Positions 17,232 through 62,597 of a stretch of DNA of 64,000 bases are shown here, piece by piece. This DNA comes from Christensenellaceae bacterium (GTDB taxonomy: Bacteria > Bacillota > Clostridia > Christensenellales > UBA1750): NCBI GenBank assembly GCA_031280685.1, contig JAITGM010000007.1:62001-126000 (forward strand), read 5' to 3'. The notes under the pieces were generated by a model, which worked only from the letters and a program-made list of their open reading frames with translations, was not told where the DNA came from and searched no databases. The first letter of the stretch is position 1. Each line of letters opens with the position of its first letter. The position numbers and the translations under genes are program-made.

Positions 17232-17758
17232 TATTTCACCGCCTCCCACTGCCACATTCCCGGCGTATCAGGCGGGTAAACGCAATTCGGCATATCGGCC
17301 TTCGCCAGATATACCGCGCCTTTGTAGCTGTAATATTTGCCGCTTTCCACCGCTACCAGAATACCCGCCGTTTCCGGGTATGGCATGGGATCGTCCTTTG
17401 TCCCGGCTGCGGTAAGCTCCACAAGGCGGTAATACGCAAAAGTGGTTTCAACCGGGTAGGCTGCATTCGACGTGTGCGCCGCCACGATTTCAAAGAGAAG
17501 ATCGCCGCTGCGTATGATTTCGCCTTTCTTGTAGGCTGTGTCAAGCGCATATTCTGGATAGTCCACAATGTCAGCGGATTGCAGGATCATTTCGTCAGTA
17601 ATGACATTTGCGCCGCTGGCACGGTCTGCTGCAATCTGCGCCCGGAATGAAAGCGAAAGCAAAGCGGCGGTGCTTTCGCCCGCCGCCTGTATCTGCTCCA
17701 TATCCTTTTTTATGGCCTCTGTTTCGTCCGGCCTGTCTTTTTTATGATTTACACTCAT
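17231..17758 (-). CDS. Phage tail accessory protein with CBM5/12-like segments
   Basis: 175 aa. Two short modules resemble the carbohydrate-binding type 5/12 fold: YALDTAYKKGEIIRSGDLLFEIVAAHTS and GKYYSYKGAVYLAKADMPNC...PGMWQW. Such modules are frequent in proteins at the tip of Firmicute phage tails, where they may touch cell-wall sugars. It directly follows the DGR target gene with a 4-base overlap, so it belongs to the tail tip/receptor-binding group. Confidence 0.6.
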   Translation of the reverse strand: MSVNHKKDRPDETEAIKKDMEQIQAAGESTAALLSLSFRAQIAADRASGANVITDEMILQSADIVDYPEYALDTAYKKGEIIRSGDLLFEIVAAHTSNAAYPVETTFAYYRLVELTAAGTKDDPMPYPETAGILVAVESGKYYSYKGAVYLAKADMPNCVYPPDTPGMWQWEAVK

Positions 17759-19488
17759 TCAAAATTACCTCCCACACCGGAAACCCAGCATTCGCCGACA
17801 GCGCCGTTTCTGGCTACCGTAATACGAAGCCCCAAGCCGGAATTTATGGCATACTGTGACGTATTTTCAAATACGTGCGCCGTACCCTGCAAAACCTTTG
17901 TTGTCATGTCCTCCCACACGGGCGACGTGTCAAACGGGTTATTGCTCACTTCCACGCGGAAGGTTGCGCCCGCGGGTATCTGCCTGTGAACAATGACATT
18001 TACGCGCTTCGGCTGCGCGTCAGCATTGAAAGGCTGCGAAAGCCCGATTGTGAAGCCGTCAACCTGTTTCGTGAATGTCATTGTGCGGGAAGCAGTATTC
18101 CCGGCGCTGTCTGTGGCCGTGATTTTCAAAGAATGCTGGCCGTTTGCCAGCTTCACGAAGTCCACGCCCGCCACATTCGCCGTTTGCTCCACGCCCAGCG
18201 GCGGCGTGAACGTGCGGATCGTGTTGTCGCCCACGGCCTCAACCGCCGTTACCGCGTCGCCGTCCGGATCGGTCACGGTGTAGGCGTAGCCGAAGTCCCC
18301 GGACTTAACGCCCAAATCGCCGTTTGTGCCGGAAATGGCCGGCGGCTGGTTGTGTATGACGGCAACCGCGCCGCCTGTTACATAGGCGCTTTCGTTTCCG
18401 TAGCTGTCCACGGCCTTCACGCGGTATTTTATCGTATTCCACGCCGTAGACACGGTTTCGCTGAACGTCAGCCCCGCCGTGCTTGTGGCCTGCGTGTAGC
18501 TGCCGTTATTTACGCTTCGTTCCAGCTTGTAGGTGATTGCGTCGCCGTCCGGATCAGTGGCCGCGCCCCACGAAATATTTATAGGCTGGCTGCTGTAGCA
18601 CGTCGAAGGCGTGGTTATCCCCGCGGGCGCGGAAGGCGCACTATTGAAGATAATTTCATAGTTGCCATCTGAATTTACACTGTCAGATACCAAGATTTCA
18701 GAGGACAGATTACAAAGCGGACGAACGCCCCTGACACCGTAGTACGCGCTGTAGTTGATCAACGCGCCGGACGTGATGACGCTGCGCACGTTGCAGGAGT
18801 TCGACACGTTAGGCGTGCGAAGCCACCAGTACCACGCCGCCGTAGTATTCAAGCTTGCGTTTGTGTACTCTGAATTACTCACGCATTCGCTTGTCGGATA
18901 CGCAAGGCGGCTTGCATCGTCGCTGAAAAGCGCCAGCTTCACGCCCTCGGCAATGCTGTTTTCATTGGCAAGCCCTACTTCGGTAGTGGACGGCAAAAAC
19001 ATTTTCGCCGTGAAGGTTTCGTAGCTGCCGCCGTCTACCGTTGCTTTAACCACCGAAAGCGTAGTTGTCATAAGCGCATCTACAAACTGCGCCGGAAGCA
19101 TGGCAAGGAAGCCCGCCCACTGATCGTATTCGTTATAATTCTGGTACACGTTCGCATTCGTCGGCGGCGCGTCCGCGCTGTGCTTCGCGCTGTACCACGC
19201 TCCCGCCGCGGCGTTGCTGTTCAGCCATTGCAGAATATTTGAATGAATGTGCCTGTTATTACCGTACTGCTTGCGGTTGCTGTCGCTGTTGCTGGCCTCT
19301 ATAGCGTCAGAACACATTAGCTGTATAATTTTATCCGTTATGAGCGTTACCGCCCCGGACGGATAACCCGTATGGTTCTTGTCAGCAACCTTGAATACAA
19401 TTTTGCTGCCGAAACGCGATTGAAACGCCGAATTGACAGGTATTTCAACCTTGTTCCCCACCGCCAGCGTGCTTAATGCCTTTGGCAT
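17755..19488 (-). CDS. DGR target 1: tail protein with DUF6273-like variable domain and Ig/FN3-like repeats
   Basis: 577 aa. Residues about 1-265 form a DUF6273/C-type-lectin-like domain (WYWWLRTPN...GVRGVRPLC) whose residues 228-258 are variable region 1. An FN3-like domain (about 275-365), a second Ig/cadherin-like domain with two TDPDGDA motifs, and a C-terminal beta-rich region follow. By analogy to Mtd-type and other DGR targets it is inferred to be the receptor-binding tip of the tail. Start ATG 19488 follows GGAAGGTG; a GTG 9 bases upstream lies within that site. It overlaps the RT gene by 44 bases. Confidence 0.88.
   Translation of the reverse strand: MPKALSTLAVGNKVEIPVNSAFQSRFGSKIVFKVADKNHTGYPSGAVTLITDKIIQLMCSDAIEASNSDSNRKQYGNNRHIHSNILQWLNSNAAAGAWYSAKHSADAPPTNANVYQNYNEYDQWAGFLAMLPAQFVDALMTTTLSVVKATVDGGSYETFTAKMFLPSTTEVGLANENSIAEGVKLALFSDDASRLAYPTSECVSNSEYTNASLNTTAAWYWWLRTPNVSNSCNVRSVITSGALINYSAYYGVRGVRPLCNLSSEILVSDSVNSDGNYEIIFNSAPSAPAGITTPSTCYSSQPINISWGAATDPDGDAITYKLERSVNNGSYTQATSTAGLTFSETVSTAWNTIKYRVKAVDSYGNESAYVTGGAVAVIHNQPPAISGTNGDLGVKSGDFGYAYTVTDPDGDAVTAVEAVGDNTIRTFTPPLGVEQTANVAGVDFVKLANGQHSLKITATDSAGNTASRTMTFTKQVDGFTIGLSQPFNADAQPKRVNVIVHRQIPAGATFRVEVSNNPFDTSPVWEDMTTKVLQGTAHVFENTSQYAINSGLGLRITVARNGAVGECWVSGVGGNFE
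18715..18807 (-). other. DGR variable region VR1
   Basis: 93 bases aligned without gaps to the template repeat at 20704-20796. They differ at nine positions, all of them A in the template on the coding strand. The 3' end in coding sense is an adenine-free 17-base block (GGGGCGTTCGTCCGCTT), the expected G/C-rich initiation segment. Homology to TR stops sharply on both sides. Confidence 0.96.
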
Positions 19489-20527
19489 CGTCGTCACCTT
19501 CCTTTTTGAATAGTTTGTCGTAGTAAATATCCATCCGGTGAATTAAGTGGTAACAGTCACCTTTAGAGGCATGAGCGCGCCAGCTTTGATATGATTGCGC
19601 AACCGTGGCGCGGTCAATTTTGCCTTCGTCCAGCAAATGCCGCATTTTCTTTAACTTCCTGCGCGCGTTATTCTTTGACTTGCGGCGCACCTTTCGGACA
19701 ACGCCGCCCGTTTCGGTCAAATACGTATGAAAGCCTAAAAAGTCAATACCGTTTTTCAGCGGATAAATATTTGTTTTTCCATTAAGCGAAAGCCCCAAAG
19801 CGCCGACGTGCTTTTCGATCTCCCGCAAGCAATGGCGCAAATATTCCTTGTCTTCATGGATTAAGTAGAAGTCGTCCATGTAGCGCCCGTAGAATTTCAC
19901 GCCCAATTTTTCCTTGATAAAATGATCCATGTCATTCAGGTAGAGCAAGGCGAACAGCTGCGAAGTTTGGTTGCCTATAGGAATGCCGACATTGCCTTCG
20001 GTGCTGTCTATAATCATATCCAGCAACCAAATGACATCGGGATCGGCAATGCGTTTGCGGATTAAAAGTTTTAACAGGTCGTGCCTAATGGAATAGAAAT
20101 ACTTTGAAATGTCGCATTTCAATACCCACCCGTCAACACTGTTTCTTCTGTAAAACTTCCGCATGAAGCCCTCCAGCCTGTCAAGCCCGTAATGCGTGCC
20201 TTTTCCTACTTGCGAAGCGTAGTTGTCTTGAATGAAACTGCGCGTAAAATTCGGCTGTAAGACATTATCGCATAGGGCGTGCTGCACAACCTTGTCTTTG
20301 TAGCTGTTCGACATGACAACCCGCTTTTTCGGTTCGTACACCATAAATACGTTGTACGGCGAAAGCGTGTATGTCTTCGTGCGTAGCTGCTCACTTAACA
20401 GGTTCAAAGCCTCCAGCAAATTCACTTCAAATTTAGCTGCCGCCTGCTTCCACCTTTTGCCCCGGCGCGCCGCTCTGTAGGCGCGGTAGAGGCTTTCAAA
20501 CTGGTAAACCTTTTCAAATTCGCTCAT
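19445..20527 (-). CDS. DGR reverse transcriptase
   Basis: 360 aa. Catalytic Asp lies in KCDISKYFYSI (about residue 139) and in YGRYMDDFYLI (YMDD at about 216-219). The IPIGNQTSQ motif at about 182-190 is the DGR-lineage version of RT motif 4. C-terminal GIDFLGFHTYL and a basic thumb region follow. The protein copies TR RNA into cDNA with errors at adenines, and the cDNA then replaces VR sequence. No endonuclease or maturase domain is present, so it is not a group II intron RT. It sits directly after TR and overlaps the first target gene. Confidence 0.96.
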   Translation of the reverse strand: MSEFEKVYQFESLYRAYRAARRGKRWKQAAAKFEVNLLEALNLLSEQLRTKTYTLSPYNVFMVYEPKKRVVMSNSYKDKVVQHALCDNVLQPNFTRSFIQDNYASQVGKGTHYGLDRLEGFMRKFYRRNSVDGWVLKCDISKYFYSIRHDLLKLLIRKRIADPDVIWLLDMIIDSTEGNVGIPIGNQTSQLFALLYLNDMDHFIKEKLGVKFYGRYMDDFYLIHEDKEYLRHCLREIEKHVGALGLSLNGKTNIYPLKNGIDFLGFHTYLTETGGVVRKVRRKSKNNARRKLKKMRHLLDEGKIDRATVAQSYQSWRAHASKGDCYHLIHRMDIYYDKLFKKEGDDDAKGIKHAGGGEQG

Positions 20528-20703: not shown

Positions 20704-20796
20704 AAGCGGACGAACGCCCCTGTTACCGTTGTACGCGTTGTTGTTGTTCAACGCGCCGGACGTGTTGACGTTGCGCACGTTGTAGGAGTTCGACAC
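20704..20796 (-). other. DGR template repeat (TR)
   Basis: A 93-base non-coding unit between avd and the RT, read on the minus strand. It carries clustered AAC codon-like triplets corresponding to NSYNVRNVNTSGALNNNN, the adenine-rich positions that become variable. It matches VR1 over all 93 bases and VR2 over 78 bases except at adenines. The transcript from 20818 to 20528 would be the template RNA. Confidence 0.96.
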
Positions 20797-20818: not shown

Positions 20819-21217
20819 CTATGCTCTCGTTTTATCCCGCTTTTTCCACGCGGCGGTCATAGCCTTAACTTCGATAACCAGTTTTGACCAATATTCGCAA
20901 CTGGAAAGCGAAATGAAGCCCATTTCCTGCGAAAGCTCTATAAGAAAAAGAAGCTCCTTGCAATAGGTCATCGCCCTTGCCTGTAGCCTCTGCCGCTGCA
21001 CCTTTTCGGCTGCGTCCCGTAGGTCTAATTCGTTGGCCTCTAAGACGCATTCAAAAATGCTTAATGATTTATCCTGTATCCGGTTCACTATGGTAAATCG
21101 GTACTTCTTCGGGAATTTGTTTGTGTTGCTGCTCACTGTGAAGGTGTGCTTTACAAGGTCTTTCGCCTTCACAATCACCCCGAATTCGTTTTGTTCCTTT
21201 TGCTGTTGTGGCGGCAT
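20819..21217 (-). CDS. avd: DGR accessory variability determinant (Avd)
   Basis: 132 aa, predicted all-helical four-helix bundle with a basic surface. Recognisable segments are VKAKDLVKHTFTVSSNTNKFPKKYRFTIVNRI, LEANELDLRDAAEKVQRQRLQ and MTYCKELLFLIELSQEMGFIS, the usual pattern of bacterial Avd proteins. In studied DGRs, Avd forms a pentameric barrel that binds RT and TR RNA and is needed for cDNA synthesis. It lies immediately upstream of TR, the usual avd-TR-RT order. Confidence 0.9.
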   Translation of the reverse strand: MPPQQQKEQNEFGVIVKAKDLVKHTFTVSSNTNKFPKKYRFTIVNRIQDKSLSIFECVLEANELDLRDAAEKVQRQRLQARAMTYCKELLFLIELSQEMGFISLSSCEYWSKLVIEVKAMTAAWKKRDKTRA

Positions 21218-38084: not shown

Positions 38085-38963
38085 TCACCCCCTCTTTTTC
38101 TGCTTTTTCGTTTTTCGCGGCGGCGGCTCCGGCTTTAGGTGCATTTTCGCATATATGTAAGCCCCTGCCACGAATTTAGAACTTTTCACCGCTACTTCGT
38201 CGAAGTCGTATTCGGGAAATAGCTTGCTGAAAATCATCGGCGCGGCTGCGTCCATATCCTGCGCCATGCGCTCGGCCTGCCTTTTGCTGATCTTCGTGTC
38301 GGCGGTTGTTATGGTCGGCTCCTTCAAATTCCGCGAAGCCTGCCAGCGCTTGCTTTTCGTCGGCTGCTTCGTGATATACCGCGCCAACCCTTCCAGCGTG
38401 CCATCCTCCGGCTCTAATTCATCAACGCGAACGCTGCCATGCGGCCAAAGGCTTTTTACTGTTTTTCTATCCATGCCGGACATGATAACGTGATGGTGAA
38501 CCCGTGTCCTGCGCCCGTCGCCGTTGTAAAACTCAATCACGTAAACATACTTCAATTCCGAAAGCCCGTTTTTGCGCCGATATGTGCGAACCCGACGAAT
38601 GAAATTGCGTATGTCCCGGCGCGCCTGTTCTTCCTCTGGTAACACGCCGCGCTTGTAAGTAAGCGTTACATGGAGGTCTTCCGGCGTAAAGTTGGCATTG
38701 ATTTTCCGGATCAGTTTCTTTTTTGCGTTCCGGTCGTTCAAATTCTGCTGTGCTTCTCGGCTGGAATGCACCTTCGCCGCCCGAACCTCGTTTTTCGTGT
38801 TCCAAAGCGGGTAAACCTCCACTTCCAGAACCTGACCGCTTTTTATCGTGGCCGCCCTGTATCTGAAAATATCTTTGTGCCGCAATGCTTCAAAAGCGCT
38901 TTCTGTAAGCTCGCCGCACATCTGGTCAAAAAGAAATTCATAGTTTTTTGCGCTATACGGCAT
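38085..38963 (-). CDS. HUH rolling-circle replication initiator-like protein
   Basis: 292 aa. Three HUH endonuclease motifs are visible: motif 1 LHVTLTYKRG, the HUH motif RVHHHVIMSG and motif 3 LARYITKQ with the presumed nicking Tyr and Lys. Such proteins nick one DNA strand and stay covalently attached, starting rolling-circle synthesis. The C-terminus is strongly basic. Rep proteins of this class occur in filamentous phages, plasmids and some Firmicute prophages. Confidence 0.8.
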   Translation of the reverse strand: MPYSAKNYEFLFDQMCGELTESAFEALRHKDIFRYRAATIKSGQVLEVEVYPLWNTKNEVRAAKVHSSREAQQNLNDRNAKKKLIRKINANFTPEDLHVTLTYKRGVLPEEEQARRDIRNFIRRVRTYRRKNGLSELKYVYVIEFYNGDGRRTRVHHHVIMSGMDRKTVKSLWPHGSVRVDELEPEDGTLEGLARYITKQPTKSKRWQASRNLKEPTITTADTKISKRQAERMAQDMDAAAPMIFSKLFPEYDFDEVAVKSSKFVAGAYIYAKMHLKPEPPPRKTKKQKKRG

Positions 38964-39727: not shown

Positions 39728-40102
39728 TTATCCGTAATTTTCGCCGTCGAATTCTTCATACTCGCCGCAATCTGGTTCGCCCTCTTTTGGCGAATAGCGG
39801 ATACCGTCCACGCAACCGACGCACGGGAACGGATTTTCTTCATCCGTTTCGGCGCTGCCATCGTCAAGCGGGCAATGCGCCAGCTTCGCGCACGTGTTGC
39901 ACCAACACGCTTTACAGTCGGCAATATTCGTTTTGCCCGGCGTTGCCGCTGCTGGTTTTTCGTCCTGCGTCCAGTAAAGAGCCTCCATCGCCGTAGGGAA
40001 CACAACTTCAAGAAACTTCGTGCGTTCCCGGTCGATAAAGTCCGGATCACCGTGCGCTTCGAATTCAATGTCGGCTATCTTATATCTAACGCGGCTTTCC
40101 AT
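39728..40102 (-). CDS. Cysteine-rich early phage protein, 124 aa
   Basis: N-terminal half MESRVRYKIADIEFEAHGDPDFIDRERTKFLEVVFPTAMEALYW is followed by a cysteine cluster (DCKACWCNTCAKLAHCPL...FPCVGCVDG...DCGEYEE) that could bind zinc or an Fe-S cluster. No family recognised. The start overlaps the end of the 48-aa membrane peptide gene, so translation is probably coupled. Confidence 0.7.
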   Translation of the reverse strand: MESRVRYKIADIEFEAHGDPDFIDRERTKFLEVVFPTAMEALYWTQDEKPAAATPGKTNIADCKACWCNTCAKLAHCPLDDGSAETDEENPFPCVGCVDGIRYSPKEGEPDCGEYEEFDGENYG

Positions 40103-40232
40103 TCCCGCGGCCTCCTTTTATAATGTTGCGTATGCAGGCCAGCACCACGGCCACGATCAGCGCCGCGCCTCCTGCGCAAGCAACGCCCACAAGCAAATAG
40201 AAGGCGTTTGCCATAAATTGAAATGCCGTCAT
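40086..40232 (-). CDS. 48-aa single-pass membrane peptide downstream of the VR2 protein
   Basis: ATG 40232 overlaps the stop of the VR2 gene (ATGA) and its own TAG overlaps the start of the next gene. One hydrophobic helix (FYLLVGVACAGGAALIVAVVLACI) is followed by a basic tail (RNIIKGGRGNGKPR), so the C-terminus should face the cytoplasm. Tight translational coupling to the DGR-diversified protein suggests stoichiometric expression and perhaps membrane anchoring of it; this is inference. Confidence 0.7.
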   Translation of the reverse strand: MTAFQFMANAFYLLVGVACAGGAALIVAVVLACIRNIIKGGRGNGKPR

Positions 40233-41044
40233 TTGTCATCGCCTCCGAAAAAGTTTATAGTGCGGGCGAAGTGGAACATCAATTCCCACGCTTGCGTTTC
40301 ATTAAAGCCCGCCGTTTGAAATTCGCTATACATATTAAATAAGGTATGTGCCAGCTGGCCGAAGTCGCATTCGTCTTCGTCCGGCTCTTCTTTTTCCTGT
40401 GCGTATGGCGCGGGCGGCGCTTCGCCGAAGAAGTTTTTGTAAAGCGCGTCCATGATTTCCGAAAATGGCGCTTTTACACGCTGCTTCACTTCGGCTTCAT
40501 CGTAAGATACCGAAATATCAGATTTCAGATAACAAAGCGGACGAACGCCCCAGCTACCGTGGTACGCGCGGCTGTTGTCCAACGCGCCGGACGTGTTGAC
40601 GCTGCGCACGTTACGGGAATTTCCGTTCCGCTCGGTCGTCCACGGTGTACAAGTCCACCACCAATCAGACGCATCCGGGATCAGCTTTCTATAATGGCGG
40701 TACATGTCGCATGTGATAAGGCCAATTGTTACGGTTTCCTTGCCGTAGTCCGTTAACCCGTCGTCCGAAGTCAAATCCAGCGCAATAGGCCGGAAAGCTT
40801 CCTTGTCCGCGCCGCCCTCTATGAGCGCGCTCAAAAACTCTTCATTCAAATATGCGCGAAGAGAAGAGGCGGCAAAGTCGTTTTTGTTGTCTTCGTCGAA
40901 GGCGCGTTCCTCCAGCACGTCGGCGGCAAGGCACAACGCCGCATTTGGCCTATGCTCCAGCACAACCCATTTCACGCCGCCGTATGTAAAGCGGCTTCCG
41001 GCCTCCAGCGTCGAAAGTGTCCCGGTTTTCATTGCGGTTTCCAT
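40229..41044 (-). CDS. DGR target 2: early DUF6273-like protein carrying VR2
   Basis: 271 aa. The domain (LRAYLNEEFLSALI...WWWTCTPW...VRSVNTSGALDNSRAYHGSWGVRPLC) is homologous to the variable domain of the tail target, and residues 145-170 are VR2. No signal peptide or Ig-like repeats are present; the C-terminal 75 residues are a helical tail (FSEIMDALYKNFFGEAPP...CDFGQLAHTLFNMYSEFQTAG). It therefore seems to be an intracellular protein. It lies in the early operon after the MazG-like gene, with AAGGAG before its ATG, and is coupled to a small membrane peptide. Confidence 0.88.
   Translation of the reverse strand: METAMKTGTLSTLEAGSRFTYGGVKWVVLEHRPNAALCLAADVLEERAFDEDNKNDFAASSLRAYLNEEFLSALIEGGADKEAFRPIALDLTSDDGLTDYGKETVTIGLITCDMYRHYRKLIPDASDWWWTCTPWTTERNGNSRNVRSVNTSGALDNSRAYHGSWGVRPLCYLKSDISVSYDEAEVKQRVKAPFSEIMDALYKNFFGEAPPAPYAQEKEEPDEDECDFGQLAHTLFNMYSEFQTAGFNETQAWELMFHFARTINFFGGDDK
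40535..40612 (-). other. DGR variable region VR2 (remote)
   Basis: 78 bases aligned without gaps to the 3' part of the template repeat at 20704-20781. It differs at eight positions, all adenine in the template. The adenine-free 17-base 3' block is identical to TR and VR1. Beyond it, VR1 and VR2 continue to resemble each other (CTTTGT.ATCTG) while TR does not, as expected for the IMH side. It lies about 19.8 kb from TR. Confidence 0.95.
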
Positions 41045-41094: not shown

Positions 41095-41535
41095 TTAGCA
41101 TTTTTTGCCGCCGTGACGATATGGGCGGCTTTTGTTGTATTCGTGCTTAATACGGATCGCTCGTTCAATGTCAATTCCGGCGTGGCCGCAATAGTCCAAA
41201 ATGCGTATAATGCAGTCTGCCAGCTCCACGGCCACACCTTCCGGCTTTTCCACTCTGTCCGTGCATTCTTCGCAATGGCCGCAATCAGCGTCGGAACTGT
41301 CGGCAATCCGATCTTGCGGATCGTCTTCGTGCAATGTTTCTTTACACTTGTGATAAACCATCGGCATTCCGTCCCTAAATTCTTCCAACGCCTCCGCAAG
41401 CTCCGACACGCAAAGCATAAGAATTTCCGGAAGGCCACGCGGTTCTTCCCACCAGCCATGCGCAACCGCGTTTTGGTGGATTTCTGCGGCAAGCTCATTC
41501 ATGCCAGTGCCGGGCGCTACTGTGTTAATGTCCAT
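41095..41535 (-). CDS. MazG-like nucleotide pyrophosphohydrolase
   Basis: 146 aa from ATG 41535. LCVSELAEALEEFRDGMP and VAVELADCIIRILDYCGHAGIDIERAIRIKHEYNKSRP form the ExxE...ExxD metal-binding helices of the all-alpha NTP pyrophosphatase superfamily. A Cys-rich insert (DADCGHCEECTD) separates them. Phage MazG proteins hydrolyse dNTPs or (p)ppGpp-like signals. It lies just upstream of the VR2 protein gene. Confidence 0.85.
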   Translation of the reverse strand: MDINTVAPGTGMNELAAEIHQNAVAHGWWEEPRGLPEILMLCVSELAEALEEFRDGMPMVYHKCKETLHEDDPQDRIADSSDADCGHCEECTDRVEKPEGVAVELADCIIRILDYCGHAGIDIERAIRIKHEYNKSRPYRHGGKKC

Positions 41536-41539
41536 TTGT

Positions 41540-42172
41540 CTATTCCTCCCCGTCAATTTCTGTTTGTTCGCCCTCGCTCTCACGCCGGGCGGCTTCGCGT
41601 TCGGCTTTTCGCGCTTCTTTCAATTCAAAGGAAGTGCGGCATTTGCTCGAAAGCTGTTCCATGCTCTCAACAAATTTTGCTTCAAGGATATTCAGCGGCA
41701 TAATAACACCCGCTATCATAAGCCCCATTTTTGCCGCAAAGTACGTGCCGCCTTCCGGCGTGTGCCGCTCGTATAGTTCTAAATCGTCCGCTACATCTGC
41801 AAGCGGTGCTAAAAAATCAGCGTCGATAAACTCCAATCCTCCACGTGTGAACAGTGGTCGGACAACGCGCCCACTATAGCCAAGCGTTATTTTCTCGCGG
41901 TCAAGCATAGTTTCGTCTGTGTCTATATGGTCAAAATTGATAGAGGTCGGAAGCCGATCATGTCGAATGTAGATTTTTTCAAGTTGCTTTTCCGTTAGGT
42001 CGAACATTGCCGCAATGTTTTCTTCCGTCAGGTAAGGTAAGCCGGAAAGCGGGTAAACGGCTGCGTGTGTCCCTAACCACTGTTCCGTTATTTCGCCTTC
42101 GGCGCTTATGCGGTCGTACAAACAATACACGCCATCACGCTTGCACATGGCCGCCAGTGTCTTCAATTTCAT
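41540..42172 (-). CDS. Conserved early phage protein, 210 aa
   Basis: MKLKTLAAMCKRDGVYCLYDRI..EGEITEQWLGTHAAVYPLSGLPYLTEENIAAMFDLTE is a pattern I associate with conserved Firmicute prophage proteins of unknown function. The C-terminus is a charged helix (ELKEARKAEREAARRESEGEQTEIDGEE). It is followed 4 bases later by the MazG-like gene. Confidence 0.7.
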   Translation of the reverse strand: MKLKTLAAMCKRDGVYCLYDRISAEGEITEQWLGTHAAVYPLSGLPYLTEENIAAMFDLTEKQLEKIYIRHDRLPTSINFDHIDTDETMLDREKITLGYSGRVVRPLFTRGGLEFIDADFLAPLADVADDLELYERHTPEGGTYFAAKMGLMIAGVIMPLNILEAKFVESMEQLSSKCRTSFELKEARKAEREAARRESEGEQTEIDGEE

Positions 42173-42506: not shown

Positions 42507-43124
42507 TCAATCTTTGTATGGATTTTGCAAGCTCCAGTCCCAAAGCTCGCCGCTACTGTAGGTGTTGCGAAAATGGTTGTTCTTGCCGTCGCCCGTGAAG
42601 AATGTGTATTCTGCTGGAAGAACGCGCCCCGCATCTCCAAGGCCGATTTTTTCAAGCTTCCACCGCGCCAGCACGTCGGCGGCTATGGCTATATGCTCTT
42701 CTGTGGCCGGATAGCTCGGCGAGTATCCCACGAACTGGTTTTCTTGCTTCACAACCTCGGCTATGGTATCCGGCCAGCGCGGATCGTCAACCCGGTTCAG
42801 CACGCACCATACAACCGCCGCTTTTTCCGCTGTAGAGGGAATGCCCCGTGCTTCGCCCCATATGAGCCGCGCCAGCATTTCAACGTCGTTTTCGTCCCGC
42901 TCCGCTTCCGGCGCTCTTATTACACTGTCGCCCGGTTCTGTTGCGCTTTCGGCTTGTTCGATAACACTTTCTGGTGTTTCAATAACGGTTTCCGGCGTTT
43001 CGGTCACATAATCGGGCGTTGTGTCGCTGTTGGTTGCCAGTGTCGGCGTATGTGGCGGCATAATTGCTGCGGCGAAAATAACAACGCCCGCTATCATGCA
43101 GATAAGAAGGGAAGGCTTTTTCAT
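42507..43124 (-). CDS. Membrane-anchored cell wall hydrolase, SleB/Hydrolase_2 type
   Basis: 205 aa. An N-terminal signal anchor (LLICMIAGVVIFAAAIM) is followed by a low-complexity linker with repeated ETPETVIETPESVIEQAES units and then a SleB-like Hydrolase_2 domain: MLARLIWGEARGIPSTAEKAAVVWCVLNRVDDPRWP carries the catalytic Glu. These enzymes are lytic transglycosylase-like. It lies in the early operon beside methyltransferase genes, not in the lysis cassette, so it may act during lysogeny or early infection. Confidence 0.82.
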   Translation of the reverse strand: MKKPSLLICMIAGVVIFAAAIMPPHTPTLATNSDTTPDYVTETPETVIETPESVIEQAESATEPGDSVIRAPEAERDENDVEMLARLIWGEARGIPSTAEKAAVVWCVLNRVDDPRWPDTIAEVVKQENQFVGYSPSYPATEEHIAIAADVLARWKLEKIGLGDAGRVLPAEYTFFTGDGKNNHFRNTYSSGELWDWSLQNPYKD

Positions 43125-43924
43125 ATAGCCGCCTCCTTTATCCAAAGAACTTCAATGCGTGCTTGCCCCCGCTCGGCGGCGGCTTTCTTTTCAATGCGCT
43201 GCCAGCCCGCCAAGCGCTCGTTGTAAAGTTCGTTGTCGTACCCGCTCAAAACCACGGAACCGGAATGCGCCGCCAATGCCTCCAGTAATTCCACATGCTG
43301 CGCATCGTTCATTTCAATGGCATATATGTTTTTTCGGCGGGTTCCCGGTACATATGGCGGATCGGCATAAATAAGACATTTTGGATCGTTGTACTTGCGG
43401 ATAAGCTCCAAAGCGTCCATGCACTCTATTTGCGCTTCCATTAGGCGGCCGGCCGCTTGTATGATCCTCTCTGGAACCTTCGCCCATTGCTGCGGCATTG
43501 CGGGCGCTCTGCCTGTAGCGCTGTGCCTCCAGCCTGTTTTTTGCCCGGTAAGCGTTCCGAAAGCCTGCCAGCATCGCACAAGGAAAAGGCGTGCGGCGTA
43601 TAAGTCGGCTTCGTCGCTATGCTTGCAAGCCTCCAGCGCTTCAAGCGCCGTGCAAGCGATTTCGTATTCTTCACGCGCCCACGGCGTTAAGGCTATGAGC
43701 GCCGCCAACTCTTCCGGTTGGCTACGAATGACGCGAAACAGATTTACCACGTTGTGATCGCGGTCGTTTATGGTTTCCAGTCGGGCGGGTTTTTTGTTAA
43801 AAAATATGGCTCCGCTACCGAAGAATGGTTCAAGGTAGATTTCATGCGCCGGAAGTTGTGGTATAATCCAGCTCGCCGCGCTCCATTTTGCACCGGGATA
43901 TTTCAAAAGCGGTCGTTGTGTCAT
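43121..43924 (-). CDS. DNA adenine methylase, Dam/D12 class
   Basis: 267 aa from ATG 43924 (GGAGG upstream). N-terminal PLLKYPGAKWS and YLEPFFGSGAIFF bind SAM; the catalytic motif is CLIYADPPYVPGTR. RARLFL-type features (AARLFLVRCWQAFGTLTG) also fit the D12 class. It methylates N6 of adenine, probably in a GATC-like site. Its start overlaps the stop of the C5 methyltransferase gene (ATGA). Confidence 0.92.
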   Translation of the reverse strand: MTQRPLLKYPGAKWSAASWIIPQLPAHEIYLEPFFGSGAIFFNKKPARLETINDRDHNVVNLFRVIRSQPEELAALIALTPWAREEYEIACTALEALEACKHSDEADLYAARLFLVRCWQAFGTLTGQKTGWRHSATGRAPAMPQQWAKVPERIIQAAGRLMEAQIECMDALELIRKYNDPKCLIYADPPYVPGTRRKNIYAIEMNDAQHVELLEALAAHSGSVVLSGYDNELYNERLAGWQRIEKKAAAERGQARIEVLWIKEAAI

Positions 43925-45264
43925 ATAGCTGCCTCCCTGCCCCGCCATACATCGAAGTAACCCGCTCGGCGCACTGCGAAAGCGTCCCCGCGCTGGACAA
44001 TATCCGGGTAATTGCTGCTTGCTATTTGCATTGCGTATTTGTCTATCTCAAAGGCGTAATACTTTATGTTGTTGTATCCCAACTGGTCGAAGCAATAGCG
44101 CCCCGTGCCGATCCCGTCATACATGGACATAACAACAATTCTTTCATCCAGCGGAACGCCCGCCAGCGCGTGGCGTAAAAGGTGTATAATAACTTCCGCT
44201 GTCCAACCGTTGCCAAGCCCTCTATACGCTTGCGTATCAGATACCGCCCGGCAATAATCGTCCGGCAAGGTCTGGAGGCGGCAAGCCTCGGTTACGCTTA
44301 ATTTTCGGATTATGTAATAGCCATCCGGTAATTTGATAGGATAGGTTTTGCCCTTAATCTCAATTTGTCCAGCTTCCACGCGATACACTGGCCGGCCGCG
44401 CTCCACATTATCAGAAGGCACGGCATAAAGCCCGGTTCGGCTACTGCTTTTATCGCTACATCCTCCTGCGGTCGTGGCCGCTTGCAGGGCAACGCTTTTT
44501 GCGTCTACCGCATAAATGCGCTTTGATTGTGTTGGTTTCAGCTCGCCCTTTTCATTCGGAAGACAACCAACCCGGACGGGTACGCCTTGATAACCCTTCG
44601 TGCGGATTATGTTTTCTTCGAAATTGCGTTTGCCGCATTTGTCATATGAAGCGCGGAAGCATTCGGCCTTTTCCCGGTCGGCAACTGGCATAGCGTAAAG
44701 CCCCGTTGCTGCACCCCCGCCGCCGTCCGTCGCTTTTAGTGTAACGCTCTTTCCGTCAACGCCATAAATGCGCCCCGCCTGCTGCTGGTAGTCCGGCCAC
44801 GTTCCCACACGGTTAGGTGCTACCGCCTCGGCAACCATATTCCGGGTATGTCGCTTCAAACTGTCTTCCGGCGTGGGGCCGTGCGCCGTGGTAAGTGTGT
44901 ATGCTTTATCGCTCCAACTTTCGCCCCGCTCCAAAATGTCTTGAAGTAATATGCCGCGGTCTTCCGGCTGCGGAACGTCGCCGAAATTGTGGCAATAGAA
45001 CCGTTCCCGCCGCTGCGCGGATACCAGCGCCGAATTGATATACTGGAGCGGCGCGCCAAGCTCGGCGGCTATCTGGTCTTTGATCGGCTGCGCGGCGCTT
45101 TTGTTGTTCTCGTATAAGAAGAAGTCCGGCTTGAAGCGCTCTTTGGCGATAAGGTAGTTTCTGAATAGCTCCCACCCTATGCCCTCGGCTTCGGTTTCGC
45201 GGTTCTTGCTCTGCGCTATGCTCCAGTGCGTGCAGGGCGAACCGCCGATTAAGAATTTGATCAT
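43921..45264 (-). CDS. Circularly permuted DNA cytosine-5 methyltransferase
   Basis: 447 aa from ATG 45264, with AAAGGTG upstream. Motif order is unusual: the N-terminus begins with motif IV (IGGSPCTHWSIA, catalytic Cys), then motif VI-like FFLYENN and motif VIII-like SAQRRERFY. Then come a variable target-recognition stretch with two repeated RIYxVDxKSV...GLYA(M/V)P units and motif IX/X (LSVTEACRLQTLPDDY, YRGLGNGWT). SAM-binding motif I (VVMSMYDGIGTGRYCFDQLGY) comes last, with motifs II-III. The DGIGTG form resembles Dnmt3-type sequences. It probably protects phage DNA. Confidence 0.88.
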   Translation of the reverse strand: MIKFLIGGSPCTHWSIAQSKNRETEAEGIGWELFRNYLIAKERFKPDFFLYENNKSAAQPIKDQIAAELGAPLQYINSALVSAQRRERFYCHNFGDVPQPEDRGILLQDILERGESWSDKAYTLTTAHGPTPEDSLKRHTRNMVAEAVAPNRVGTWPDYQQQAGRIYGVDGKSVTLKATDGGGGAATGLYAMPVADREKAECFRASYDKCGKRNFEENIIRTKGYQGVPVRVGCLPNEKGELKPTQSKRIYAVDAKSVALQAATTAGGCSDKSSSRTGLYAVPSDNVERGRPVYRVEAGQIEIKGKTYPIKLPDGYYIIRKLSVTEACRLQTLPDDYCRAVSDTQAYRGLGNGWTAEVIIHLLRHALAGVPLDERIVVMSMYDGIGTGRYCFDQLGYNNIKYYAFEIDKYAMQIASSNYPDIVQRGDAFAVRRAGYFDVWRGREAAI

Positions 45265-45349
45265 GTTAGTTAGCACCTTTCGTTAATGGTTAGCCAGGCG
45301 GGGGACGGGTTCGATCACGTCTGGCGGGGCAGTCAATATTTGAAGCCGC

Positions 45350-45606: not shown

Positions 45607-45623
45607 GTTACGTAAAACGCAAC
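45607..45623. promoter_or_regulatory. Operator copy downstream of the Cro-like gene
   Basis: GTTACGTAAAACGCAAC, an imperfect dyad (GTTACGT/ACGCAAC), and exactly the inverse complement of 45859-45875. It lies at the end of the Cro-like gene, before the next early gene. Confidence 0.7.
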
Positions 45624-45844
45624 TACGCCGCAAAAAAAATATCTTGCGGCCTTGCGTTTAGGACGGAAGCGAAGGCTTCCATCTCGCTTCGCGTAAAATC
45701 GGTTTTCCCGTTAATACGCGCGGAAAGAGTGGCACGGCTCATTCCCATCTTTTCGGCCATTGTGCCAATGTCAAGGCCAGCATCTACAAGTTTTGCCTTC
45801 AAACTCCGCGACTGGCCTTCTGTCAAATAGGCGTGTGCGCTCAT
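45623..45844 (-). CDS. Cro-like helix-turn-helix regulator
   Basis: 73 aa from ATG 45844 (GGAGGTG upstream). AGLDIGTMAEKMGMSRATLSARINGKTDFTRSEMEAFASVLN is a compact XRE-type HTH. It is divergent from the CI-like gene and is the first gene of the early operon. Two inverted copies of a 17-base operator flank it, so it probably controls both its own promoter and readthrough into the operon. Confidence 0.82.
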   Translation of the reverse strand: MSAHAYLTEGQSRSLKAKLVDAGLDIGTMAEKMGMSRATLSARINGKTDFTRSEMEAFASVLNARPQDIFFAA

Positions 45845-45858
45845 CGTTTTCACCTCCT

Positions 45859-45875
45859 GTTGCGTTTTACGTAAC
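45859..45875. promoter_or_regulatory. Operator copy upstream of the Cro-like gene
   Basis: Plus strand GTTGCGTTTTACGTAAC, the exact inverse complement of the copy at 45607-45623. It lies between the early promoter -10 and the Cro-like start codon, ideal for repression. Confidence 0.75.
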
Positions 45876-45876
45876 C

Positions 45877-45906
45877 ATGATAGCATACTGTTTGTGGGCT
45901 TGTCAA
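45877..45906 (-). promoter_or_regulatory. Early (PR-like) promoter
   Basis: On the minus strand TTGACA (45906-45901) and TATCAT (45882-45877), 18 bases apart, drive the Cro-like gene and the early operon. Confidence 0.7.
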
Positions 45907-45912
45907 TACGCC

Positions 45913-45936
45913 ACGTCAAAAAGTTTCGTTTGACGT
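45913..45936. promoter_or_regulatory. CI-type operator between divergent promoters
   Basis: ACGTCAAA-N8-TTTGACGT, a perfect 8-bp dyad midway between the two divergent -35 elements, a different sequence from the Cro-type operators. A CI dimer here could touch polymerase on both sides. Confidence 0.65.
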
Positions 45937-46433: not shown

Positions 46434-47417
46434 ATGAGCGGTTTATACTTTTCTATAAACGCAAGCGGCGAACTCGTGCGTGTGGATGCGCCGGAAAAAC
46501 AAAAACCTTCGCGCGAAGGTAAGGGCAGAAGCCTACTTGAAGCGTTGTCAAGCTATGTCGTGCTTGATTTAGAAACTACAGGACTTGATCCCCGTTGGGA
46601 TAGCATAATAGAGATTGCCGCCGTGCGTGTGCAGGATGGCAAAATTACAGATCAATTCCAAACGCTTGTAAATCCGGGTTTTGAAGTAGACAACTTCATT
46701 ATTGAACTGACCGGAATAACCAACGAAATGCTTTCTTCCGCTCCATCTGTCGAAGATGTGTTGCCGCGCTTTGTTGAATTTGTCGGCGACAGTGTGGTAA
46801 TTGGCCACAACGTGAACTTTGACGTTAATTTCATATACGACGACTGCAAGCGCATTATGTCTGTTCCGTTCGCCAATGACTTTATAGACACTATGCGCGT
46901 AAGCCGCCGCCTCTACAAAGAATATTCAAATCATACGCTTTCGGACTTGCTGGAACGCTTTTCTATCGGCGGCAATGTAGAGCATCGCGCACTATCTGAC
47001 GTGTTGAAGACAAATGCTTGCTATGTCTACATGAAGGATTACGCCAGTAGCCACGATATAGAATTCGCTTCGCTCTATCCTTTGAAAGGCGGCGTTTCGG
47101 CGAAAAATATTCAGACTGGCGAAACGGAATTTGACGAAAGCACGGCAGTATATAACAAGCTCTTTGTATTCACCGGGGCTTTGGAGCGCATGACACGAAA
47201 AGAGGCTATGCAGATCGTTGTAGATATGGGCGGCAAGGTTGCCGACAATGTAACGAAAAAAACCAGTTACCTTGTGTTGGGCAATAACGATTACTGCACT
47301 ACAATAAAAGACGGCAAAAGCACGAAGCAAAAGAAAGCTGAACAGTTTAAGCTATCTGGCCTTGACATTGAAACCATTTCGGAAGACATCTTCTACGAAA
47401 TGCTATCAGGACAATAA
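46434..47417 (+). CDS. DEDDh exonuclease (PolC/DnaQ-like) with C-terminal BRCT domain
   Basis: 327 aa from ATG 46434 (AAAGGA upstream). The exonuclease has YVVLDLETTGLDPRWDSIIEIAAVRV, IGHNVNFDVNFIYDD and EHRALSDVLKT, giving the DEDDh residues. The last ~80 residues form a BRCT domain (LFVFTGALERMTRKEAMQIVVDMGGKVADNVTKKTSYLVLGN). It lies in the lysogeny module between cI and int on the plus strand, so it may be made in the lysogen. DNA repair, replication fidelity or a defence role are all possible. Confidence 0.87.
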   Translation: MSGLYFSINASGELVRVDAPEKQKPSREGKGRSLLEALSSYVVLDLETTGLDPRWDSIIEIAAVRVQDGKITDQFQTLVNPGFEVDNFIIELTGITNEMLSSAPSVEDVLPRFVEFVGDSVVIGHNVNFDVNFIYDDCKRIMSVPFANDFIDTMRVSRRLYKEYSNHTLSDLLERFSIGGNVEHRALSDVLKTNACYVYMKDYASSHDIEFASLYPLKGGVSAKNIQTGETEFDESTAVYNKLFVFTGALERMTRKEAMQIVVDMGGKVADNVTKKTSYLVLGNNDYCTTIKDGKSTKQKKAEQFKLSGLDIETISEDIFYEMLSGQ

Positions 47418-47436
47418 ACGCCGGGAAGGTGATTGT

Positions 47437-49230
47437 ATGGGCGCTGCTGCATTACAAAACGCCGTCATATATGCCCGCTACTCCAGCCACGGGCAGACGG
47501 AACAAAGCATAGAGGGACAATTACGGGACTGCTACGCCTTCGCCGAACGTGAAGGCTATGTTGTCGTGGAGGAATACATAGACAGGGCTTTAACCGGGCG
47601 TTCGGATGATCGCCCGGACTTCCAGCGCATGATCGCCGACGCGCCGAAGAAGCAGTTTTCCTATGTGATTGTCTGGAAGCTGGACAGGTTCGCCCGGAAC
47701 CGCTTTGACAGCGCCAACTATAAGCACCAGCTAAAAAAGCACGGCGTGCGCGTGGTGTCGGCCACGGAACGCATAAGCGACGATCCCGAAGGCATCATGC
47801 TTGAAGGTATGCTTGAAAGCCTTGCGGAATACTACAGCGCCAACCTTTCGCAAAACGTGAAGCGCGGCCAGCGGGAAAGCGTCATAAAAGGCACGTACAC
47901 GGGCGGCATTCCTCCCTTTGGCTTCAAAGTAGTAGACAAGAAGCTTGTAGCCGACGAAGCAACCGCGCCTATAATCAAATGGGTATTTGAGCAATATGCT
48001 TCCGGCGTGCCGAAGAAGTTAATTATGGATACGCTGAACGCCCGCGGCGTGAAAAACTATTATGGGCGGCCTATGTCGCTTTCCAGCCTCCAGCACGCGC
48101 TACGCAATCGAAAGTATATCGGCGAATACCTCTACAACGGGCAGGAAGTAACGGGCGGTTGTGAAGCGCTCATAGACGTAACAACCTTCAATCAGGTGCA
48201 GGAAAGGCTTGATAAGCTACGCCACGCGCCCGCTACGAAGAAGGCGCGGCAGGACTATTTATTGCAGGGCAAGGCGTTTTGCGGCTATTGCGGAACAAAG
48301 CTTGTAGGCGACGGCGGTACGGGCAAGATGGGGAAGGTATACCACTACTACGCTTGCGGCAAAAAGAAGAAATACCGCACATGCCAGAAACTCAACGAAA
48401 AGAAGGATTTTCTGGAATGGTACGTAGTGGAACAGACGGTTGAATACGTGCTTACGCCGCCGCGCATGAAGTATATTGCAAGCCGCCTTGTGGAGCGGTA
48501 CGAACAGGACTTCGGCGGCGCGAAGGTTAAGGAAATGGAACGCCAGCTTGAAAAGCTGGAGCGGGACATAAGCCGGGCGGTTGACGCTTCCATAGAAGCC
48601 CCATCGAAAAAAGCCCGCGAACGCTTCTATGAGAAAATAGAAACGCTGGAGGCTAAAAAGGAAGATTTAGAACTTGATCTTGCCCGGCTTCGTCTGGTGA
48701 ATGGCATTCAGTACACCGAAGAGCAAATAATAGCGTGGATGAAGACTTTTTGCAAAGGTGATCCGCTCGACGAAGTTTTCAGACGGCGCATTATCGACGT
48801 TTTCATAAATGCCGTGTACGTCTACGACGACAAAATAGTTATTTACTATAACGTGAAAAACGGCAAGCAAGTTTCGTATATGGAAATGTGCGAAGACTTA
48901 GAAGGGCTTGAAGATTTAGACGGCGCGTGCTATGATATGGACAAGTCAAGCGGGGTTCGGATTTCAGGTAACACGCTCCGCCACGCCGCCGCGAACTCTA
49001 CTGAGTTCGCGGCGGCTTTTTGCAAGCGACCTTTCTCATTCCGTCGTTTAACTCAAATTCCCGATTCTCGCATCGCTTCCCTTCGGCCGCGCCGCTCACG
49101 GCTCACTACACGCTCCGCCCACTTGCGAAGGGAATTTCACTGCGGGCGGTGCTTAATGAGCGAAAACGAAGGGAAAATCGGCTTAATTCCCCGGCAAAAA
49201 CGCGGCCCAAACGCCGCACGGCCAGGGTAA
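47437..49230 (+). CDS. Large serine integrase (C-terminus reads into host DNA)
   Basis: 597 aa as read in the lysogen. A resolvase domain (AVIYARYSSHGQTEQSIEGQLRDC, catalytic Ser in YARYSS), a recombinase domain, a zinc ribbon (KAFCGYCGTKLVG...YYACGKKKKYRTCQ) and a coiled-coil-containing C-terminal domain. ATG 47437 follows GGGAAGG. The attR core (48976-48983) lies inside the frame: residues up to about 515 are phage DNA and the last about 82 are host DNA. In the circular phage the frame would end after 23 other residues (538 aa). Confidence 0.93.
   Translation: MGAAALQNAVIYARYSSHGQTEQSIEGQLRDCYAFAEREGYVVVEEYIDRALTGRSDDRPDFQRMIADAPKKQFSYVIVWKLDRFARNRFDSANYKHQLKKHGVRVVSATERISDDPEGIMLEGMLESLAEYYSANLSQNVKRGQRESVIKGTYTGGIPPFGFKVVDKKLVADEATAPIIKWVFEQYASGVPKKLIMDTLNARGVKNYYGRPMSLSSLQHALRNRKYIGEYLYNGQEVTGGCEALIDVTTFNQVQERLDKLRHAPATKKARQDYLLQGKAFCGYCGTKLVGDGGTGKMGKVYHYYACGKKKKYRTCQKLNEKKDFLEWYVVEQTVEYVLTPPRMKYIASRLVERYEQDFGGAKVKEMERQLEKLERDISRAVDASIEAPSKKARERFYEKIETLEAKKEDLELDLARLRLVNGIQYTEEQIIAWMKTFCKGDPLDEVFRRRIIDVFINAVYVYDDKIVIYYNVKNGKQVSYMEMCEDLEGLEDLDGACYDMDKSSGVRISGNTLRHAAANSTEFAAAFCKRPFSFRRLTQIPDSRIASLRPRRSRLTTRSAHLRREFHCGRCLMSENEGKIGLIPRQKRGPNAARPG
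48953..48983. other. attR (phage-side arm plus core)
   Basis: Arm GGGTTCGGATTT (48953-48964) and core CTCCGCCA (48976-48983). After the core the sequence continues CGCCGCC, the natural downstream flank of a tRNA-Ser gene as seen at 61711. Confidence 0.8.
48985..49021 (+). terminator. Original terminator of tRNA-Ser(GGA), displaced by the prophage
   Basis: GCCGCCGCGAACTC and GAGTTCGCGGCGGC form a perfect 14-bp stem with a 4-nt loop and five T residues. It is nearly identical in sequence and placement to the terminator directly after tRNA-Ser(GCT) at 61712. This supports the idea that it once followed tRNA-Ser(GGA) and was separated from it by insertion. Confidence 0.85.
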
Positions 49231-50016: not shown

Positions 50017-50492
50017 TGCGCCTCCTCGCCCTGAGCGATAGCCACGGCAACGCGCAGGCCCTGCGCGCCCTCGCACCCTTTATTGAGGCCCTGCGGCCCG
50101 ACCATATCGCCCATTTGGGCGACTATGCATCGGATGGACAACTGCTTGCGGCCTGCGCGGGGCGGGAAGTAATCCAAGTGCGTGGCAACGGCGATTTTGC
50201 CTTTGGCGAGCTGCCCGCCGAGCTCGTTCTTGAGTTGGGTGCCGCGAAAATCCTGCTCACGCACGGGCACCAGCACGCGGTCAAGAGCGGGCTTTCGCGC
50301 CTGTGCGAACGCGCGGGGCAGCTTGGCTGCGCGGCCGCGCTCTTTGGGCACACGCACCTTCCCCATTGCGAAAAGACGGACGGAATCTGGCTCGTAAACC
50401 CGGGTGCGCTCGCAGACCCCGCCGACCCGCGCCGCAAGGGCCTGGCCGTGCTCGAAGCCGAGGGCGACGCGCTCCGCGCGGCGCTTTTATAA
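50013..50492 (+). CDS. YfcE/MJ0936-type metallophosphoesterase
   Basis: 159 aa. LLALSDSHGN, HLGDYASDG, VRGNGDF, THGHQHAV and FGHTHLPH are the five metal-binding motifs of the calcineurin-like YfcE family, and WLVNPGAL is the typical end segment. Usually located after rdgB in Firmicutes, as here with a 4-base overlap. Probable phosphodiesterase; natural substrate unknown. Its last 96 bases are duplicated just downstream. Confidence 0.92.
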   Translation: MMRLLALSDSHGNAQALRALAPFIEALRPDHIAHLGDYASDGQLLAACAGREVIQVRGNGDFAFGELPAELVLELGAAKILLTHGHQHAVKSGLSRLCERAGQLGCAAALFGHTHLPHCEKTDGIWLVNPGALADPADPRRKGLAVLEAEGDALRAALL

Positions 50493-50646
50493 GCTAAACC
50501 CCGCCAGTTGAGCCGCCCCGCTTGTGAAAGGGCGGCGAAATCCGCCCACGAACCCGGGTGCGCTCGCAGACCCCACCGACCCGCGCCGCAAGGGCCTGGC
50601 CGTGCTCGAAGCCGAAGGCGACGCGCTCCAGGCGGCGCTATTTTAA
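50397..50646. repeat. 96-bp direct duplication of the phosphoesterase 3' end
   Basis: 50397-50492 (AACCCGGGTGCG to the stop codon) is repeated at 50551-50646 with six base differences and again ends in a TAA stop. The copies are 58 bases apart. The second copy has no start and is a dead remnant. Confidence 0.9.
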
Positions 50647-61751: not shown

Positions 61752-61919
61752 CCGCATCGCAGCATCGCCTGCGGCGATATTGAACCCTGATTCGTTCGGC
61801 GGCCGCAGGCGAAAGCGACGGCCGAGTCCGACCTTTCCCGCAGGCGGCAAGCCTACCATCGATCCAGAGCAGCTTTTAACCGTTCGGCCCCAAGCGTAGG
61901 GGTTTCATTTCCCCCACGT

Positions 61920-62597
61920 ATGGCGAAAATGGAGCCCTTTTCGCATCGCGACGGTGACTTTTCGCGTCTAATTGCGCGTGAGATTGCCCTCGACTTTGGT
62001 TATCCGAATGCTGTACTCCCCGCTTTCGTAGTTGACTTCCATGATGAGGATCTTCCCCTCGGCCTGGGATCCCAGTGGCGATCTGCGCGCTGCACGGCAG
62101 GGCCTTGAGGTTATCGTCCTAAACCTGTTGATTCAAGGCTAGGTGAGCTATGCGAAGGCCGTCGTCGAATCCCCTCCCCTGGCTGTGGCTTCCATCAGCC
62201 TCTGCCCGGCCACCGCCCTTGCCAGGCTTTTGGGCAGTCTCAGCCCCGCCTTGCCGTCCGCACAAGGCTCAATCCCGCGGCAATCGCGCACGACCAGGAC
62301 GCAATGCGGCGGCTGGTGGACGACGGCGTTTTTCACGATAGGCCGTCGTTCCGTCTCTATGCCCAAATCGCCGCAGCCGGCGAAAATGCACTCGCGGACG
62401 CGTCCAAAATCGCGAACCCTAGCCTGCTTCTGGGCGCGGACGGCGATCAAATCGTTTCCGCGCCCGCGATCGGCGAGCTGGCCTAAAGCGCAAGGCCCCA
62501 TCTGCGCCTGAAGGAGTTTACGGACGGATTTCACTGCCTGCGCCATGACAGCGCACGCGAAGAGGTCCTTTTGGCCATGCTTTGCTTCCTCAAGTGA
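61920..62597 (+). pseudogene. Decayed alpha/beta hydrolase (lysophospholipase-like)
   Basis: The 3' part reads MRRLVDDGVFHDRPSFRLYAQIAAAGENALADASKIANPSLLLGADGDQIV (from 62304), then an in-frame stop, then HLRLKEFTDGFHCLRHDSAREEVLLAMLCFLK. This is the C-terminal half of a monoacylglycerol-lipase-like hydrolase, with the Asp in GADGDQIV and the His in DGFHCL. Upstream the frame is broken repeatedly and no intact nucleophile elbow is seen. The 5' limit is uncertain. Confidence 0.65.

Follow-up and report, generated by a model that had tools for sequence, protein, structure and literature searches.

A two-target DGR with a second variable region in a putatively early C-type lectin gene of a Christensenellaceae prophage

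The window analysed here, 64,000 nucleotides of contig JAITGM010000007.1 from a Christensenellaceae bacterium, carries a DGR whose template repeat (TR) matches two variable regions (VRs), VR1 in a tail-module protein and VR2 in a small C-type lectin (C-lec) protein. VR2, which lies some 20 kb away from the TR, is a real second VR. On balance, and with cautious confidence, the data as a whole are best explained by a two-target DGR in which the VR2 protein is cytoplasmic and has a role in conflict.

Results

The DGR cassette and its two variable regions

The DGR of the window is complete, with a DGR-type reverse transcriptase (RT) and Avd located next to the TR according to Pfam and PHROG profiles. 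RT, Avd and TR are present and both VRs differ from the TR at adenines only, which identifies the locus as a DGR. Its features are:

17755-19497, minus strand: first DGR target, tentaclin-type tail-module protein, 580 aa; DUF6273 and Ig-like domains; phrog_10993
18715-18807, minus strand: VR1, inside the tail-module target; 9/9 differences at TR adenines
19445-20527, minus strand: DGR reverse transcriptase gene, 360 aa; RVT_1 6.8e-15, phrog_1423 1.4e-134
20704-20796, minus strand: TR, flanked by avd and the RT gene
20819-21217, minus strand: Avd accessory protein gene, 132 aa; phrog_3206 7.3e-27; bAvd 1.9e-7, under Pfam's cut-off
40229-41044, minus strand: second DGR target gene, 271 aa; DUF6273 C-type lectin; phrog_9958
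40535-40612, minus strand: VR2, 78 bp; 8 differences from the TR, all at TR adenines

VR1 matches the TR (20704-20796, minus strand) over 93 bp, and the location of 9/9 differences at A has a P of 1.4e-6. For VR2, aligned with TR positions 20704-20781 (minus strand; 21 A in 78), all eight differences are likewise found at A (hypergeometric P = 8.7e-6). The initial annotation had described this 78-bp match and its eight differing sites, all template adenines, and recomputation gave exactly the same result. A chance repeat is ruled out by the adenine-only differences at this P value. Judged by their sequence, the VR2/TR differences bear the pattern of adenine-mutagenic retrohoming. The frame of VR2 reads the TR as AAC (Asn) codons, and the eight base changes alter seven codons, from Asn to Ser, Asp, Arg or His and in one case from Arg to Trp. 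At the 3' end, where an IMH-type initiation sequence would be expected to differ between VR and TR, both VRs run on as CTTTGT.ATCTG and the TR has CTTCGG; this stretch is also coding sequence that homologous domains have in common. VR1 and VR2 are 21.8 kb apart. The earlier view that one DGR has two targets about 20 kb from each other is supported, with TR 20704-20796 matching both VRs.

Domain structure of the VR2 protein

The two targets share a DUF6273 domain (Pfam, 4.7e-11 in the VR2 protein and 1.8e-31 in the tail target). The tail target additionally matches Ig-like families, for which no Pfam match was found in the VR2 protein; a common DUF6273 fold and missing Ig repeats had also been noted in the initial annotation. 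The VR2 protein belongs to phrog_9958 (1.5e-65), which is annotated as of unknown function. A single C-lec domain and additional helices make up its AlphaFold2 model (32 relatives, mean pLDDT 83.5). The solved IgA peptidase 9qa6 is matched over its residues 32-298 by residues 7-188 of the VR2 protein (Z 16.8), and the aligned part is the DUF6273 domain of that peptidase (PMC12402451). The C-lec part of the model matches the DGR target TvpA (2y3c) with a Z of 7.7, which is middling taken alone, and also many C-type lectins. Mtd, which has beta-prism and beta-sandwich domains in addition to its C-lec domain, is absent from the listed fold matches, an absence that does not exclude likeness.

The strongest 19-residue hydropathy window of the VR2 protein is 0.88, and the threshold for a membrane segment (1.6 over 19 residues) is reached by 0 of 32 family members. 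None of the PADLOC defence models matches the VR2 protein. Pfam and PHROG scans of the target and its scanned neighbours returned neither STAND/NACHT nor MoxR-vWA domains.

Genomic context of the VR2 gene

In the direction of transcription, the VR2 gene is preceded by genes for a C5-type MTase-like protein, a D12 MTase, a SleB-type hydrolase, two unknown proteins and a MazG-like protein. It is followed by genes for a 48-aa membrane protein, two unknown proteins, a replication initiator, an MTase, VRR-NUC, HNH and terminase. Located features of this region are:

38085-38963, minus strand: replication initiation protein (REP_ORF2-G2P), marking the early module
40086-40232, minus strand: 48-aa protein with a single membrane segment; its ATG overlaps the stop of the VR2 gene (ATGA)
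41095-41535, minus strand: MazG-like pyrophosphatase gene, next to the VR2 gene on its upstream side; phrog_3301 8e-36 on the longer frame 41095-41583
43121-43948: D12 MTase gene, early region
43921-45276: C5-type MTase-like gene, early region, upstream of the D12 MTase
45623-45919, repressor-like gene; 47362-49230, large serine integrase, on the other strand

By gene order, the VR2 gene would belong to the early region, before the terminase and between the MTase, SleB-type and MazG-like genes and the REP_ORF2-G2P initiator, which agrees with the early assignment made previously. The tail genes, with which an Mtd-like protein would be encoded, are elsewhere, their cassette being about 20 kb away. 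The MazG-like neighbour is also present in L005, nd12 and other relatives.

A conserved 47-48-aa one-segment protein is encoded directly downstream of the early target in the window, in L005 (3508-3651) and in L064 (20615-20761); the window copy has no PHROG match. The ATGA overlap with the early target is found in the window and in nd12, and the small protein adjoins the target in L005 too. Beyond the integrase, a 96-bp stretch of the window is directly repeated, with 6 mismatches between the copies (50397-50492 and 50551-50646).

Recurrence of the two-target design

By self-comparison, a TR, a tail VR and a remote early VR were found in seven other phages or prophages. The share of VR2/TR differences located at A in individual relatives is:

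FP_Toutatis: 13/14
Lelie: 15/17
FP_Brigit: 7/9
nd4: 9/10
nd12: 13/13
contig L008: 11/11
contig C16, second prophage of the same genome: 11/13
contigs L202, L205 and L210: 9/9, 13/13 and 12/12

The VR2 protein is 41-49% identical to its nd4 and nd12 homologues and about 30% to that of Lelie. By its homology to the tgt2 of nd4 and nd12, the VR at the domain end and the TR in common with a tentaclin, the window DGR is classified as a tgt2-family two-target tentaclin DGR. In C16, the early target is located at 61776-62579 and the avd-TR-RT-tail target block at 101592-105085 (loci L058 and L060). In FP_Toutatis (NC_047915.1), gp80 (49048-49200, L065), annotated as 'DUF6273 domain-containing protein', overlaps the TR (~49056-49179) and is therefore probably no gene.

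A scan of bacterial genomes yielded 48 relatives. Thirty further targets were compared, on both strands, with RT loci from the same genome or record; for 24 of them, an RT-adjacent TR was matched and ≥75% of the differences fall on A. A clear TR match is absent for the other six (L075, L094, L084, L098, L109 and L110); L126, which supplied the RT locus compared with L075 and L094, is a short contig end, so missing TR matches may be technical. Pooled over 22 matching targets, 215 of 225 differences (96%) are at TR adenines, where A makes up 26% of TR positions; these targets were chosen because they match, and the figure describes the matches rather than providing a stand-alone test. Against TRs taken from other genomes, 52% of differences are at adenines.

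Near-identical relatives vary mostly inside VR2. Between L005 and L007, 10 of the 11 differences in 6.6 kb fall within 29 bp inside the VR, and L005 and L006 differ at 17 positions in 7.6 kb, including the same 10 VR positions. The variable positions of these three contigs coincide with AAC codons of the TRs of relatives, not of the contigs' own TR, which was not found. Similarly, 12 of the 26 differences between L207 and L209 (4.7 kb) are within 52 bp of VR, and in nd4, Toutatis and Lelie, each compared with near relatives, the density of differences is 3.6- to 13-fold higher in VR2. On these comparisons, the VR2 copies of relatives are evidently actively diversified.

The initial annotation had suggested comparing VR2 between near-identical prophages and had reasoned that a VR2 constant across many strains while VR1 varies, or differing from the TR at non-adenine sites, would be a fossil duplication. 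Among the relatives, to which the comparison extends, VR2 varies (10/11 differences in the VR for L005/L007, 12/26 for L207/L209) and 215/225 of the TR differences are at A. Since VR2 varies among relatives, a fossil duplication is rejected at the family level.

Early position, MazG-like fusions and early-only DGRs

The commonest neighbour of the early target within 7 kb is a replication initiator (22 of 38 remote-target loci). The early target of Brigit is located after cro-like regulators and before an exonuclease and recT, that of nd4 before a DnaQ-type exonuclease, SSB and DnaC.

A MazG-like pyrophosphohydrolase is fused to the early DUF6273 protein in five distinct relatives, namely L078, L091, L104 (also L104/L150), L195 and L204, with profile matches to phrog_2245 (6.5e-27) in L078, at 2.6e-16 in L104 and to phrog_715 (3.7e-34) in L091. 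The L104 fusion is also among the DGR targets, 8/9 of its differences being at A; a TR was not found for the fused relatives L078, L091 and L204. In total, a MazG-like gene is fused or ≤4 kb away in 14 of 42 loci, the window among them, and the linkage holds in part of the family. As a universal partner gene of the early target, the MazG-like gene and the 48-aa membrane protein were both discarded, each being found in part of the family. MazG domains are cytoplasmic, and the DUF3310 domain carried by the early target protein of nd12 is presumably a cytoplasmic partner as well. DUF3310 in the nd12 target is also given in the available part of PMC10743442. Publications on MazG in phage defence, at the level of titles and abstracts, offered no explanation for a link between MazG and DGR targets.

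In L010, L012, L024 and more than 12 relatives, a tandem pair of small DUF6273 genes is immediately followed by Avd, TR and RT (L010:7450-13473, L012, L024, L106, L111-L117, L221-L250). The L010 TR, compared with the whole 54.6-kb record, matches only the two tandem early VRs and no tail VR. The stretches of L010 that were read include a 1122-aa gene of tape-measure size and, judged by eye, a run of structural-looking genes. The L010 DGR adjoins recT and an SMC/RecF-like ATPase; this ATPase resembles Lamassu LmuB (8e-16, PADLOC) and may be an ordinary SMC/RecF-type ATPase. Near-identical contigs with early-only DGRs vary almost exclusively in the VR of the second target (13/13 differences for L009/L012 and 12/12 for L018/L019).

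In a domain tree, which is small and based on a short domain, early targets are split from tail targets with a support of 0.98. The exception is the C16 early target, which is sister to the tail target of the same prophage (0.98). This pairing suggests two or more origins of an early target, one of them independent in C16. Retrohoming from one TR makes the VR parts of two targets alike and could pull the C16 pair together; the 41% full-length identity over 271 residues suggests that this likeness does not fully account for the pairing.

Possible function of the VR2 protein

Receptor switching is the usual explanation for phage DGRs. An early-gene protein that is diversified does not sit well with it and points to an intracellular arms race with phage-evolved binders. 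In the proposed mechanism, one Avd-TR-RT cassette would mutate two targets, the tail-module tentaclin and the small early C-lec protein, the latter of which would act in the cytoplasm, outside the virion. Its variable hairpin would bind a rapidly changing partner, either a host defence factor or the protein of a rival phage, and the phage population would maintain a variety of such binders inside the cell, for use in counter-defence or in the control of superinfection. A linked MazG-like enzyme, in the phages that have one, may be the effector.

The VR2 protein probably works in the cytoplasm and is not part of the virion, because of the MazG and DUF3310 fusions, the replication and nucleotide neighbours, the lack of membrane segments and the early-only DGRs, for which two such early genes are the sole targets detected. 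The intracellular location proposed in the initial annotation is thereby supported indirectly, in large part through relatives. What counts against a cytoplasmic location is that in known phage DGR targets the C-lec domain binds receptors on the cell surface. The chances are about even that the hairpin binds a fast-changing partner and that the proteins form an intracellular binder set for counter-defence or superinfection control.

The main alternative, a rather unlikely one, is a second virion receptor-binding protein that is Mtd-like and encoded in the early region (proposed in the available passages of Baykov et al. 2023, PMC10743442). The C-lec fold and the TR in common with the tail target speak for it, as does the best-studied phage DGR target being a tail receptor-binding protein; virion proteins, too, are normally without a signal peptide. 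However, the gene is located in the early module in all phages examined, beside replication and nucleotide genes, relatives have MazG and DUF3310 fusions, a virion-anchoring Ig domain was not found in the VR2 protein, and early-only DGRs lack a tail VR in the record.

An improbable alternative is that the VR2 protein associates with the membrane and acts in superinfection exclusion together with the adjoining small membrane protein, its hairpin recognising components of incoming phages at the membrane. A 47-48-aa one-segment protein directly downstream in the window, L005 and nd12 would suit such a role, and C16 and L008 carry another hydrophobic protein directly upstream, but proximity alone is weak evidence and the targets of Toutatis, Lelie, Brigit and nd4 are without such a neighbour.

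Still less probable is a purely metabolic function, in which the lectin module would guide a replication enzyme or a nucleotide pyrophosphohydrolase and diversification would tune it to different hosts. The MazG fusions and the MazG and replication neighbours agree with this, yet the MazG link is missing in most members and conserved nucleotide metabolism offers no obvious reason for continually randomising a binding surface. That VR2 is a passive passenger, a lectin-domain copy held TR-like by retrohoming without benefit, is scarcely credible given its recurrence across distant phages, the early-only DGRs, the independent second origin and, outside the VR, open frames and invariant residues, even though a second target can be absent (39 of 54 nd4-like genomes have two targets, according to the available part of PMC10743442).

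Extended from the cytoplasmic VR2 binder to its family, a tentative picture is that gut Clostridia phages may keep antibody-like diversified cytoplasmic binders, some fused to a pyrophosphohydrolase effector, with the whole DGR of one phage group serving two early genes and the early target having evolved at least twice. With a recurring family that includes MazG-like fusions and early-only DGRs, what was a single puzzle becomes open to testing, also in phages whose hosts are cultured (FP_Toutatis, Lelie).

Comparison with known systems

Two-target DGRs with a tentaclin (tgt1) and a small DUF6273 protein (tgt2) are described for nd4 and nd12 in the passages available from Baykov et al. (2023, PMC10743442). 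They have the same two target types as the window, one TR, and a shorter VR2 at the end of the DUF6273 C-lec domain. They belong to a different phage; in those passages, receptor binding of the Mtd type is proposed and the early position is not taken up. In the Faecalibacterium phages Lelie and CP11, one DGR is reported to have a large and a small DUF6273 target, and both VRs vary among CP11 relatives (Microbiol Spectr 2024, PMC11792537, in part). The large/small pair is like that of the window and is without assigned function in the part available. One kind of DGR target is reported for each of Toutatis and Brigit (excerpts of Cornuault 2018, PMC5883640).

Remote non-structural VRs among counter-defence genes are known from Quimbyvirus (Benler et al. 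2021, PMC8008677) and from four double-VR gut prophages (Nature 2025, PMC12629997), as described in sections of both papers. These are mostly Bacteroidota phages, and the likeness of their targets to the VR2 family is one of description. Putative antigen sensors that are diversified by DGRs in multicellular bacteria (PNAS 2024, PMC10907252, in excerpts) contain a C-lec sensor, like the VR2 protein, and are proposed there to recognise invaders in the conflict systems of the cell. In contrast to the window target, for which no such partners were seen, they are cellular DGRs with STAND/NACHT or MoxR-vWA partners. Mtd of Bordetella phage BPP-1 is, as in the window, a C-lec domain under an adenine-mutagenic DGR. 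It is a single tail target with extra domains (PMC10743442, in part), whereas the window target is one C-lec domain in the putative early region.

Two-target DGRs with a small second target and remote non-structural VRs are thus already published, and the window is less novel than the initial annotation assumed. Within the open-licence literature, mostly available as passages, what is new are the MazG-like fusions, the early-only DGRs and the apparently independent origin of an early target, all of them in relatives.
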